Shown here piece after piece: positions 1,442 through 19,544 of a stretch of 33,226 nt of DNA. The DNA lies in the NCBI RefSeq assembly GCF_030068505.1, contig NZ_JAQOSO010000047.1:1-33226 (forward strand), in the 5' to 3' direction. Below the pieces are notes generated by a model, which saw nothing but the letters and a program-made list of their open reading frames with translations, was not told the DNA's origin and searched no databases. The translations under genes were made by a program, and so were the position numbers. Each line of letters begins with the position of its first letter. Position 1 is the stretch's first letter. The stretch comes from Roseofilum capinflatum BLCC-M114 (GTDB lineage Bacteria; Cyanobacteriota; Cyanobacteriia; Cyanobacteriales; Desertifilaceae).

Positions 1442-2215
1442 CTACAGGGAGTCGGGATCAATATCGAGCTGTCGGAGCTTATCCCGTAATTGTTGTAACT
1501 CCGACTCAGCTTGTTCTGCTCGTTGCTGTTCTTGGTCAGCTCGTTGTTGTTCTTGTTCTGCTCGTTCGCTTGGTGTTGGTATCCACTTCCCACTACCATC
1601 GTAAAAGCGCAACCACAACCCTTCTATTCCCTCATAGACCCCTTGCCATAACCCTAATCCTAGCCCTAATGCCTCTAACCAGACTTTCTTTTGAGATAAG
1701 TCCAATGGTTCGTATTTTCCCGCCTTGAGGACAAACCCTCGCAAGTTATTCTGATAGCGATCGTAAATAAAATAATAGGGAACCTGTAAAATTTTCTCGT
1801 ACACTTCCCATTTGGTTGGCGGTTTTTCCTCTTGGCGCTCTGTGCGTCCTAAGTCTTCATCTTCCGTTCCTGGGGATGCTAACTCAATCACCATAAATGG
1901 ACTGACTTTTTCTTGCCAGATCACATAACTTAGGCGTAATTCCTTTTGATTACGACTACGCTTGGCTCCCAACACTAGAAACCAATCAGGGCGTTTGTAC
2001 CATAGGGTATTATTGCTTTCATAGTAGAGGTTGAGATCGCTGGCGATAAAATAGTCTTCTTCCGGGTAGCGGGGAGATTGACAAGTTTGACTGAGTAAAT
2101 CTGGTTGGTAATCGTGAAATTCATCAGGCAATCCAGGTTCCTCCGGGTTTTCGCTGGGCAGCTCGTACATGGTGGGCAGAGATTTCTGCTTGGCATAGGG
2201 ATATAGTTGAGTCAT
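1442..2215 (-). CDS. Uma2 family (DUF820) putative nuclease, copy A
   Basis: A 257-residue Uma2-type protein, a family with a restriction-endonuclease-like fold that is greatly expanded in cyanobacteria; its cellular job is unknown. Visible landmarks are KRPDWFLV (the PD of a PD-(D/E)XK core), VIELASPGTEDEDLG and YYFIYDRY. The C-terminus is a charged coiled coil rich in Q, E and R. The start at 2215 is chosen because residues from there match the second copy exactly; the open frame continues upstream to 2344 only by running backwards through the tail of copy B. Compared with copy B it has 14 extra residues of RADQEQQ-type repeats in the coiled coil and Gly instead of Arg in the DGSGKW segment. 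The family call is strong; catalytic activity is untested. Confidence 0.85.
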   Translation of the reverse strand: MTQLYPYAKQKSLPTMYELPSENPEEPGLPDEFHDYQPDLLSQTCQSPRYPEEDYFIASDLNLYYESNNTLWYKRPDWFLVLGAKRSRNQKELRLSYVIWQEKVSPFMVIELASPGTEDEDLGRTERQEEKPPTKWEVYEKILQVPYYFIYDRYQNNLRGFVLKAGKYEPLDLSQKKVWLEALGLGLGLWQGVYEGIEGLWLRFYDGSGKWIPTPSERAEQEQQRADQEQQRAEQAESELQQLRDKLRQLDIDPDSL

Positions 2216-2234
2216 GGCTTTACAGATATAGCGT

Positions 2235-2966
2235 TTACAGGGAATCAGGATCAATGTTGAATTGTTGGAGCTTATCGCGTAATTGTTGTAACTCCGACTC
2301 AGCTTGTTCTGCTCGTTCGCTTGGTGTTGGTATCCACTTCCCACTGCGATCGTAAAAGCGCAACCACAACCCTTCTATTCCCTCATAGACCCCTTGCCAT
2401 AACCCTAATCCTAGCCCTAATGCCTCTAACCAGACTTTCTTTTGAGATAAGTCCAATGGTTCGTATTTTCCCGCCTTGAGGACAAACCCTCGCAAGTTAT
2501 TCTGATAGCGATCGTAAATAAAATAATAGGGAACCTGTAAAATTTTCTCGTACACTTCCCATTTGGTTGGCGGTTTTTCCTCTTGGCGCTCTGTGCGTCC
2601 TAAGTCTTCATCTTCCGTTCCTGGGGATGCTAACTCAATCACCATAAATGGACTGACTTTTTCTTGCCAGATCACATAACTTAGGCGTAATTCCTTTTGA
2701 TTACGACTACGCTTGGCTCCCAACACTAGAAACCAATCAGGGCGTTTGTACCATAGGGTATTATTGCTTTCATAGTAGAGGTTGAGATCGCTGGCGATAA
2801 AATAGTCTTCTTCCGGGTAGCGGGGAGATTGACAAGTTTGACTGAGTAAATCTGGTTGGTAATCGTGAAATTCATCAGGCAATCCAGGTTCCTCCGGGTT
2901 TTCGCTGGGCAGCTCGTACATGGTGGGCAGAGATTTCTGCTTGGCATAGGGATATAGTTGAGTCAT
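2235..2966 (-). CDS. Uma2 family (DUF820) putative nuclease, copy B
   Basis: A 243-residue protein identical to copy A over roughly its first 200 residues, with the same PD, VIELASPG and YYFIYDRY landmarks. It differs only in DRSGKW and in a shorter coiled-coil tail ending LQQFNIDPDSL. It lies directly upstream of copy A in transcription order with a 19-base gap, so the two could be cotranscribed. The start ATG at 2966 is preceded by a segment that matches the region before copy A for only about ten bases, which marks the end of the duplication. Both copies are intact, so neither can be called a pseudogene. Confidence 0.85.
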   Translation of the reverse strand: MTQLYPYAKQKSLPTMYELPSENPEEPGLPDEFHDYQPDLLSQTCQSPRYPEEDYFIASDLNLYYESNNTLWYKRPDWFLVLGAKRSRNQKELRLSYVIWQEKVSPFMVIELASPGTEDEDLGRTERQEEKPPTKWEVYEKILQVPYYFIYDRYQNNLRGFVLKAGKYEPLDLSQKKVWLEALGLGLGLWQGVYEGIEGLWLRFYDRSGKWIPTPSERAEQAESELQQLRDKLQQFNIDPDSL

Positions 2967-16369: not shown

Positions 16370-17431
16370 CTACTTCCGTTCTGGATGATTTTCAGCCTCC
16401 GAAGGTTCGCCCATTTGGTTAATGCGATTAATCATTTGATAGAGCCGTCCATGATCCCGTTGATTAAAGTGTAAGACCAATCGGGGCAAGTCATGGACAT
16501 CAGTGAGACTCTCTTCCGGTAAGGCTTGGGTTTTTTGGATTTTACCGCTTACCAGGATGTCTCCAAACTCCTGATTGAGCTGTTCTACATCCCTATCCGA
16601 GAGTTCAGTTTTCAGCCGCATGACGAACTGTTCGCGCACATAGCGACTAGAATGATAAACTCGATAAAACTCGGCGATCGCCCGACAGGCCACATCCACC
16701 TGGTCTGTAATCGTATACAGACTTAAATCTTCCCCATTGATCAATTTCTGGCTTAACAGATGATCCTTAACATATTGCTCCCATCTGTACCAATATCGTC
16801 CCCCTGGCTTATCCAAGAAGACCAAAGGCATCGGCCCTGCCTTTCCCGTTTGGCAGAGCGTTAAGCACTCAAAGGCTTCATCCTGCGTGCCAAACCCACC
16901 TGGGAAGAGAGCCACAGCATCCGTTTCCCGCAAGAAAAACAACTTACGAGTAAAGAAATACTTAAACAAAACCAATTTATCTTCCCTCACAAAGGGGTTC
17001 GATCCCTGTTCAAAGGGAAGCTGAATATTGAGTCCAAAGGACTGCTCTAATCCCGCCCCTTCATTGGCTGCTTGCATAATTCCGCCGCCTGCTCCCGTCA
17101 TCACCATAAATCCCTGTTGGGCAACTTGGCGAGCAAACTCTAGGGCAATCTGGTATTCTGGGGCATCAGACGGTAGGCGAGCCGACCCAAAAATACTAAT
17201 TTTACGCACATGACGATAATTAGAAAAGATATGGAAGGCTCTTTCCATATCCTGTAGAGAAGCCGTTAGAATCTTCCAGTCTAAACGCTCCATATCTTCT
17301 GCTGCAATTCGCAGGATACTAATCAGAGCTTGTTCTATCCATTTACCATGTTCTAAATTGGGCAATTGAGCCACAAGTTCTGATAAATCGGCTTTCAGTG
17401 TAGCGTGAGCATCTGGGGAGGATAAAGTCAT
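16370..17431 (-). CDS. LOG family (TIGR00730) Rossmann-fold protein
   Basis: A 353-residue protein with the LOG signature: GSARLPS, MTGAGGGIMQAANEGA and the phosphate-binding PGGFGTQDE (about residues 177-185). LOG proteins hydrolyse nucleoside 5'-monophosphates to free base plus ribose-5-phosphate (cytokinin activation in plants). The conserved arginine/glutamate pair is visible as FTRKLFF and GTQDE. It is longer than the 190-residue plant LOGs because of an N-terminal helical region (about 70 residues) and a C-terminal extension. ATG at 17431 is preferred over a TTG two codons upstream. The substrate cannot be determined. Confidence 0.85.
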   Translation of the reverse strand: MTLSSPDAHATLKADLSELVAQLPNLEHGKWIEQALISILRIAAEDMERLDWKILTASLQDMERAFHIFSNYRHVRKISIFGSARLPSDAPEYQIALEFARQVAQQGFMVMTGAGGGIMQAANEGAGLEQSFGLNIQLPFEQGSNPFVREDKLVLFKYFFTRKLFFLRETDAVALFPGGFGTQDEAFECLTLCQTGKAGPMPLVFLDKPGGRYWYRWEQYVKDHLLSQKLINGEDLSLYTITDQVDVACRAIAEFYRVYHSSRYVREQFVMRLKTELSDRDVEQLNQEFGDILVSGKIQKTQALPEESLTDVHDLPRLVLHFNQRDHGRLYQMINRINQMGEPSEAENHPERK

Positions 17432-17671: not shown

Positions 17672-18022
17672 CTAACCTTCAGGGGCACTCTCCCCCCCCT
17701 CAGAGATATACTTTTGTAGGGTTGTAATCAAAGTGGTTTTCGGAACCGCCCCAACCACCATATCAACTCGTTGGCCATCTTTGAAGATCATCAGGGTGGG
17801 AATACTGCGAATACCATACTTACTGGCTACACTGGGATTTTCATCCGTATTGACTTTCACTACTTTGATCTGCCCATCAAATTGTTCGGCCACTTCTTCA
17901 ACGACCGGAGCAACGATGCGGCAGGGGCCACACCAGGGGGCCCAAAAATCCACTAAAACAGGAATTGCGCTTTGAAGCACTTCCTGGTCAAAACTATTAT
18001 CTGTAACGGCTGCTGCTGTCAT
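17672..18022 (-). CDS. trxA: Thioredoxin
   Basis: A 116-residue thioredoxin with the active site WCGPC (cysteines at residues 31 and 34), the buried Asp in VDFWAPW and the cis-proline loop RSIPTLMIF. It reduces disulfides of target enzymes, including Calvin-cycle proteins, in the cytoplasm. ATG at 18022 is preferred to a TTG three codons earlier; AAGGA lies about ten bases before it. The C-terminal tail (EGGESAPEG) is acidic and extra. It is downstream of the yfr1 gene, with its own promoter candidate. The guaB-yfr1-trxA order is conserved in many cyanobacteria. Confidence 0.95.
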
Positions 18023-18062
18023 TAGGGGCAATCCTTATCCTACATTGCACATCAGGAATTCT

Positions 18063-18071
18063 ATCATAACA
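18063..18071 (-). promoter_or_regulatory. Extended -10 promoter of trxA
   Basis: TGTTATGAT on the minus strand matches an extended -10 (TGnTATAAT, one mismatch). It would start transcription about 34 bases before the trxA ATG, just downstream of the Yfr1 terminator. The -35 is weak. Confidence 0.5.
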
Positions 18072-18088
18072 GACCGATTGGTTTAAAT

Positions 18089-18164
18089 AAGAAACCGCCC
18101 GAACAAACTGTTCAGGCGGAGTGTGGTGTGAGGAGTGAACGGAAACATCATGCGTCTCCGCTAT
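18089..18164 (-). ncRNA. yfr1: Yfr1 small regulatory RNA
   Basis: The minus strand has all three parts of Yfr1. A 5' stem-loop is formed by AGCGGAGAC (18162-18154) and GTTTCCGTT (18146-18138). A single-stranded segment holds the invariant ACTCCTCACAC (18136-18126). A Rho-independent terminator stem follows at 18119-18095, ending in TTTCTTATTT. Yfr1 is known to lie between guaB and trxA in cyanobacteria, as here, and pairs with mRNAs of outer-membrane proteins through its CU-rich core. A -10 element TACAAT (18175-18170) sets the start near 18164, uncertain by a few bases. The terminator also separates guaB3 from trxA. Confidence 0.92.
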
Positions 18165-18258
18165 ACCCTATTGTAAACAACAGATTTCACTTTTCCCCGA
18201 ATTCTGTACAAATTGTAGGAATCTTTCTCAGACTTCTGGCCATTGAGAAAAATTGAGT

Positions 18259-19422
18259 CTATTTACCCATCCCCAGTTGTTGGGCTTTTTGGTACACTTT
18301 TCCTTCTGTGAGCAAGGATGGGGCAATCACCACTTCTACCTGCTGCATTTCGCTAATGGTTTGAGCGCCTAGGGTTCCCATGCTAGTTTTCAGCGCACCG
18401 AGAAGGTTGTGGGTTCCGTCGTCTAACTGAGCTGGGCCTCGCAGGATTTGTTCTAGGGTTCCGGTGCTACCGACCCGAATTCTTGTGCCTCTGGGCAATA
18501 CGGGGCTAGGGGTGGCCATGCCCCAGTGATAGCCTCGGCCGGGGGCTTCTTTGGCTCTGGCAAGGGGAGAGCCGATCATGACTCCATCTGCACCACAGGC
18601 TAAACATTTACAAATATCGCCGCCGGTGATGATGCCCCCATCAGCGATGACGGGGATATAGTTGCCGGTTTCTTGATGATAGGTGTCCCGTGCGGCTGCA
18701 CAGTCGGCGATCGCCGTCGGTTGGGGCACACCCACACCTAAAACCCCCCGTGACGTACAAGCAGCTCCTGGCCCTATACCCACCAATAGGCCAGCAGCTC
18801 CGGCTCGCATCAAGTTTAGGGCCACATCATAGGTGACACAGTTGCCTAAAATCACCGGAATGGGCATCTCTTGACAGAATTTTGCCAAATCTAAAGGAGT
18901 AACCGACTCTGGGGAGAGGTGATCGGTGGAGACAACCGTCCCTTGGACAAAAAACAGGTCTGCCCCCGCTTCGGCTGCCACCTGACCGTATTTAATGGCT
19001 CCGACTGGAGTGGCACTCACCGCCGCAATGCCCCCTCGATCCTTGATTTCCTTCACCCGTTTGGTAATCAGTTCTGGATCGATAGGTTGGGCATAGAGTT
19101 GTTGCATCAAAGATACAAATTCATCTTTCCCTACCGAGGCAATTTTGTCTAAGACGGGGTTGGGATCGTCGTAGCGAGTATTAATTCCTTCTAAGTTCAG
19201 CACTCCCATTGCGCCTAATTTCGATAGGGTAACGGCTGTTGTCACATCCACAACCCCATCCATGGCACTGGCAATAATGGGAATTTCCCGCTCTATCCCC
19301 CCCAAGGTGAGGGTGGTCTCGGCCAGACTCGGATCGAGTGTCCGAAGACCGGGTACTAGGGCGATCTCGTCAATTCCGTAAGCTCTGCGGGCTGTTTTTC
19401 CCCGTCCAATTTGAATATCCAC
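18259..19422 (-). CDS. guaB3: GuaB3 family IMP dehydrogenase-like protein
   Basis: A 387-residue TIM-barrel protein of the IMPDH/GMPR family. The catalytic cysteine loop is [12 protein letters not shown] (Cys at about residue 222), and [11 protein letters not shown] and [30 protein letters not shown] are typical. It lacks the CBS-domain insertion found in canonical GuaB. GuaB3 proteins are characteristic of cyanobacteria and, as I recall, some have been shown to be active IMP dehydrogenases without CBS domains. GTG at 19422 is preferred because the family begins VDIQIGRGK; the frame opens seven codons upstream at TTG 19443. Yfr1 and trxA follow, and the flotillin gene is upstream on the same strand. 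Confidence 0.92.
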
Positions 19423-19544
19423 TGTCTCTCTTGCGTTTCCCAAAATATATTTAAATAGCCTATCAAATTCATTCGGAAATTAAAAAGGGTTGGGCGGGAT
19501 GGGGGAGATGGGGAGATAGGGCAGGTGAGCTGCCCTGGGTTGGG

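Follow-up and report, generated by a model that had tools for sequence, protein, structure and literature searches.

The window analyzed here, a 33,226-nucleotide stretch of DNA from Roseofilum capinflatum BLCC-M114, carries on its minus strand a yfr1 gene flanked on the same strand by guaB3 upstream and trxA downstream (Table 1). Yfr1 is a well-known small RNA of nearly all cyanobacteria, usually encoded in the same place, and it turns down cell-envelope genes. When the whole window was searched with Rfam, the Yfr1 family (RF01116) was the sole match above threshold. The match covers positions 18161–18093 of the minus strand, scores 51.1 bits, well above the gathering score of 38 (E = 1.8e-7), and is full-length, extending over model positions 1–59, all 59 positions. 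It is also the sole Rfam match up to E = 1 between positions 17400 and 19600, and a whole-genome search returned this one RF01116 match. The first-pass annotation had proposed Yfr1 on this strand and named the covariance model as the check; the full-length match above the gathering score supports the identification. The proposed placement between guaB3 and trxA is likewise borne out by TIGR01304 and TIGR01068 and agrees with the published position (PMC2190773), downstream of guaB and upstream of trxA, which is a frequent, not obligatory, trait of Yfr1. In a survey of 31 genomes, yfr1 adjoins guaB in 25 and trxA in 27 (Voss et al. 2007, PMC2190773). The element is Yfr1, a small RNA described before, at its customary location, and the finding is correct but ordinary. 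The 5' end of the gene was placed from the −10-like element and the 3' end from the U tract. Elsewhere in the window, overlapping ORFs at 1442–2344 and 2235–2966 (within 1442–2966, minus strand) encode near-identical proteins, as after a tandem duplication.

Table 1. Features of the yfr1 locus (window coordinates).
Feature	Position	Strand	Basis
yfr1 gene, predicted RNA of ~74–78 nt	18087..18164	−	RF01116 match; both ends inferred
guaB3, IMP dehydrogenase-related protein, start codon uncertain	18259..19443	−	TIGR01304, 541 bits
trxA, thioredoxin	17672..18022	−	TIGR01068, 137 bits
TACAAT, −10-like element of yfr1	18170..18175	−	sequence
5' hairpin, 9 pairs, 5-nt loop	18139..18161	−	fold
Invariant 11-mer ACUCCUCACAC, pairing region	18126..18136	−	sequence and fold; in 51/51 Yfr1 loci examined
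Intrinsic terminator: 11-pair hairpin (18119–18095) and U-rich tail (18094–18085)	18085..18119	−	fold and terminator scan
TAGAAT, candidate trxA −10, weak	18058..18063	−	promoter scan

The sequence at positions 18161–18085 folds at −28.4 kcal/mol, as compared to a mean of −15.8 kcal/mol (sd 2.7) for 200 shuffled sequences, none of which folds as low (z = −4.67). The unpaired middle of the fold spans 19 nt (18138–18120) and contains an exact ACUCCUCACAC, as in other Yfr1 RNAs, where this motif lies in an open stretch of 16–20 nt between two stem-loops. The 3' hairpin is GC-rich, with G–C pairs at 7 of 11 positions, and is followed by the U tail typical of the family, here TTTCTTATTT. Sequence, RF01116 match, and fold all confirm the earlier description of a minus-strand 5' stem-loop, an unpaired ACUCCUCACAC, and a terminator hairpin with a U-rich end. 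The accompanying claim that the loops are specific to this genome does not hold: the 5' loop GCATGAT is identical in genomes G057, G076, and G127 of our comparison, and the terminator loop is the same in G034, G057, and G127. The AAC quoted for the latter loop was read from the plus strand; in the RNA, the loop is GUU. The 5' hairpin contains three additional nucleotides in all six sequences of the genus, and the complete set of three occurs in none of the other 19 aligned sequences. The terminator hairpin has the core CAAACTG at locus L034 (G076) and CAGTTTG at locus L033 (G057); these are exact reverse complements, as if the tip had been inverted.

Yfr1 is widespread in the order. An RF01116 match was found in 145 of the 147 genomes searched, 135 of which exceed the cut-off; none was found in G070 (77% complete) or G095 (99% complete). 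Gene context and folding were examined at 51 loci, drawn from 49 of the 145 matching genomes (two doubly represented genomes were counted once), a set that leans toward strong matches because 30 of the loci are best-scoring ones. Within the 1.5–2.5 kb examined, 47 of the 49 genomes have a same-strand trxA downstream and 39 have guaB3 upstream. Loci L018 and L019 have no trxA within 1.5 kb downstream; guaB3 is not visible at L019 because the upstream side ends at the contig end. The motif is predicted to be unpaired at 50 of 51 loci, the exception being L050, a longer element that was folded within a truncated frame. When 25 of the sequences were aligned, standard pairs filled 96.9% of pair cells, as compared to 38–50% for slid partners. 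Covariation is modest. Three of 19 pairs changed on both sides, a number reached by 186 of 500 shuffles; cells changed on both sides number 7 (1/500 shuffles), and the covariation score is 0.136 (2/500). The 5' stem is nearly invariant in the aligned set, and L048 has a different, self-complementary sequence instead, which appears as alignment gaps.

These comparisons bear on two other assignments of the element. Its 51.1 bits fall below the 60–63 bits of many genomes in the order, which would suit a decayed, functionless yfr1 copy. However, the motif is intact, both hairpins are stable, and the copy is the sole one in the genome; moreover, the lower score is common to the genus (50.5–53.6 bits), in which all six members have the longer 5' hairpin. 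Decay is therefore extremely unlikely. The second assignment starts from the motif, which Yfr10 also bears (PMC6778093), and would make the element a Yfr10-type RNA having nothing else in common with Yfr1. Yfr10 reportedly lacks a conserved place and structure (PMC6778093), whereas this element matches the Yfr1 model from end to end, has both hairpins, and sits between guaB3 and trxA, so that conserved structure and place are both present. This renders a Yfr10-type RNA extremely improbable.

The TACAAT recorded ahead of yfr1 in the first-pass annotation is present, and it recurs in 6/6 genomes of the genus and in G004; it is absent in G110. As a putative promoter it consists of the −10 alone, the promoter scan having found no −35/−10 pair for yfr1. 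Upstream of this −10, a palindrome-like TACAATTTGTA occupies positions 18207–18217 of the minus strand. It is exact in 4/6 genus genomes, reads TACGATTTGTA in G034 and TACAAATTGTA in G127, is absent from G004 and G110, and could be a regulator site. In Anabaena, FurC reportedly binds the yfr1 promoter region (PMC10936207); a term search of the main text of that paper found no FurC consensus.

On the trxA side, the candidate promoter TTTAAA-18-TAGAAT is weak (9/12 bases) and overlaps the end of the yfr1 U tract. The TATGATAGAAT at its −10 is also found in G034, G127, and G093, and not in G057 and G076. The proposal of a U tract leading straight into the trxA promoter region is overstated: the overlap here is with a weak candidate, and the arrangement is not conserved. 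The 11-mer and the trxA start are 104 nt apart in this genome, G034, and G127, 155 nt in G093, and 573 nt in G057 and G076. Among the loci examined outside the genus, this distance reaches 677 nt. Given such a spread, from 104 to 677 nt, the close packing seen here is a local state. The same variation argues against a role in cis, in which the element would be a leader or attenuator of trxA and not an RNA in its own right; such a role is suggested by the same-strand trxA downstream in 47/49 genomes and by its start only ~66 nt past the U tract here. The element also closes with a strong terminator, and the trxA leader and the Yfr1 middle show no pairing (−9.3 kcal/mol, with 83 of 200 shuffles as low). 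In other cyanobacteria, free Yfr1 RNA is seen on northern blots (PMC2190773). A trxA leader is consequently very unlikely.

The locus is very probably a yfr1 gene with its own promoter and terminator, the RNA of which lowers translation of envelope mRNAs by pairing over their ribosome-binding sites. Its sequence, structure, conservation, and complementary sites are established directly in this analysis. This explanation is favored by the RF01116 match, the stable fold with an open motif, the occurrence in 145/147 genomes, the unpaired motif at 50/51 loci, and the presence of trxA in 47/49 genomes; it is weakened by the three pairs changed on both sides, which are no more than shuffles give. 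Judging from other cyanobacteria, a short RNA would be made from the gene's own promoter and would end at its own terminator. The two hairpins would keep ACUCCUCACACC open for pairing with GUGUGAGGA-type sequences in envelope mRNAs, at their ribosome-binding sites. The predicted targets are Som/OprB-type porins, murC, and perhaps tamB-like and ShlB-type genes, whose translation would be lowered, by analogy with repression published for other cyanobacteria.

In this genome, GTGTGAGGA with an ATG within 25 nt yields 8 matches. One is yfr1 in reverse reading, and one site appears twice among the rest, which leaves 6 distinct sites. Of these six, four lie near an ORF start, belonging to two neighboring porins, murC, and a tamB-like ORF. 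Exact 9-nt complements occur just before the starts of the two tandem Som/OprB-type porins and murC, and near the tamB-like start. Both porins are OprB/SLH proteins with Pfam OprB in each, and the first also matches por_somb (483 bits), an NCBIfam scan that covered the first porin only. The identity of murC is given by TIGR01082 (501 bits), and the tamB-like ORF encodes 2105 aa with a TamB domain. An in-frame ATG lies 44 codons upstream in the latter, so the Yfr1 site may be inside the frame; in the G004 relative, an upstream start of this kind is absent. A ShlB-type gene has an 11-nt complement that overlaps what appears to be its GTG start; in ShlB-type relatives in G093 and G127, the 9-mer precedes an ATG by 20 nt. 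The Yfr1 middle pairs with these five predicted target sites at −21.7 to −24.9 kcal/mol, energies matched by 0 or 1 of 200 shuffles.

Two sites were dropped as targets. One, on contig C55, is on the strand opposite a dps leader, and the other, on C119, is inside an ORF; considered as an RNA gene, the C119 site has no Rfam match up to E 0.5. These sites pair at −22.0 and −21.9 kcal/mol (2 and 0 of 200 shuffles as low), about as well as the predicted targets, and energy alone therefore cannot separate targets. On the strand of the dps-like ORF (L053 ~1495–1511, G000:C55), an exact ACTCCTCACAC, which is the Yfr1 motif itself, stands a few bases before the ATG, within a possible mRNA leader.

The plain count of GTGTGAGGA with ATG was rejected as evidence of a regulon, with 8 matches versus 15, 40, and 53 for three permutations that keep GAGGA; the reversed pattern gives 2. 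The 11-mer complement occurs 3 times in the genome, including yfr1, versus 2 for its reversed pattern, and this genome-wide count is not above chance. A leader test, which asked whether a site precedes the start of an ORF of 100 aa or more, was passed under the strict rule by 2/7 sites (one being yfr1 itself) versus 1/12, 2/26, and 0/27 permuted sites. The strict rule lost murC and tamB because of in-frame start codons upstream. With the rule loosened to allow an upstream extension of up to 60 codons, applied to all sets alike, 4/6 sites passed versus 4/12, 2/26, and 1/27 (pooled 7/65; Fisher p = 0.004, which is only a guide because the rule was altered after a look at the data). The controls comprised the loci of 15/15, 30/40, and 30/53 permuted matches, with repeats of one place merged.

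Across 10 family genomes, 95 pattern matches were reduced to 81 by setting aside 9 in yfr1 and 5 overlapping repeats, and 32 of the 81 passed the loosened leader test. With sites assigned by similarity to the proteins of this genome, the porin site is found in 8/10 genomes. The two genomes without it, G076 and G127, also have no porin match of full length; two short partial ORFs occur in G127, and the site is absent from both. The murC site is found in 6/10 genomes, comprising 6/6 of the genus and 0/4 others. In the latter four, murC has lost the exact 9-mer and kept GGTGTGGTG, a sequence able to pair with Yfr1 at its ACACCACAC part, at −23.4 to −25.5 kcal/mol (energies calculated without a shuffle control). 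The tamB-like site is found in 4/10 genomes, one of which, G057, fails the leader test.

In Nostoc, Yfr1 represses murC, mraY, porins, and others via its conserved region (Brenes-Alvarez et al. 2020, PMC6974561). The murC and mraY sites there sit in the ribosome-binding region, and murC and porins are verified targets (PMC6974561). The main text of that study makes no mention of TamB, although its supplementary target table may list tamB. In Synechococcus elongatus PCC 6301, sbtA is a Yfr1 target (PMC6202907). The predicted regulon is favored by these Nostoc targets and by the complements before the porin and murC starts, which are kept in relatives. It is weakened by counts below those of the permutations, the loosened rule, the equal pairing of the dismissed sites, and the possible in-frame position of the tamB site. 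We suggest tentatively, with somewhat more doubt than confidence, that in this cyanobacterial family Yfr1 might also control a tamB-like gene and a ShlB-type outer-membrane gene and that the murC pairing might extend past the 11-mer into ACACCACAC. If so, a single RNA would link the synthesis of porins and of peptidoglycan with outer-membrane assembly or lipid supply.

Elsewhere in the genome are two candidates for Cyano-1 (RF01701), which we take to be the Yfr2 family, scoring 41.9 bits (cut-off 41) and 37.5 bits (below it). They carry GGTGAGGAGT and GTGTGAGGAG, complementary to Yfr1, and pair with it at −21.1 and −21.6 kcal/mol, energies matched by 0 and 3 of 200 shuffles, respectively. These Yfr2-type RNAs, through their GUGUGAGGA-like complement, may titrate Yfr1 away. 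This part of the mechanism is favored by the two complements and by the Yfr1–Yfr2 interaction published for Prochlorococcus (PMC6778093), with which the complements in this genome fit by analogy.

The analysis confirms a small RNA that ordinary gene callers miss and leaves the general picture of Yfr1 unchanged. What it adds is the predicted regulon, a small set of candidate envelope targets in this genome that can be tested. As compared to known systems, the element shares with published Yfr1 (RF01116; PMC2190773, PMC6974561) the two hairpins, the open ACUCCUCACAC, the terminator, and the guaB–trxA place, and with Nostoc Yfr1 (PMC6974561) the complements before murC and porin starts. The differences are minor: the three additional nucleotides in the 5' hairpin are genus-wide, and the predicted length of 74–78 nt slightly exceeds the 54–69 nt published for this abundant RNA (PMC2190773). 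In S. elongatus, Yfr1 is ~60 nt (PMC3219970), and strain PCC 6301 has a 65-nt Yfr1 between guaB and trxA (PMC6202907). Yfr10 has the 11-nt motif in common with the element and differs in reportedly lacking the conserved structure and place seen here (PMC6778093). Cyano-1/Yfr2 carries the complement of the Yfr1 motif and is a partner RNA of Yfr1, not a relative.
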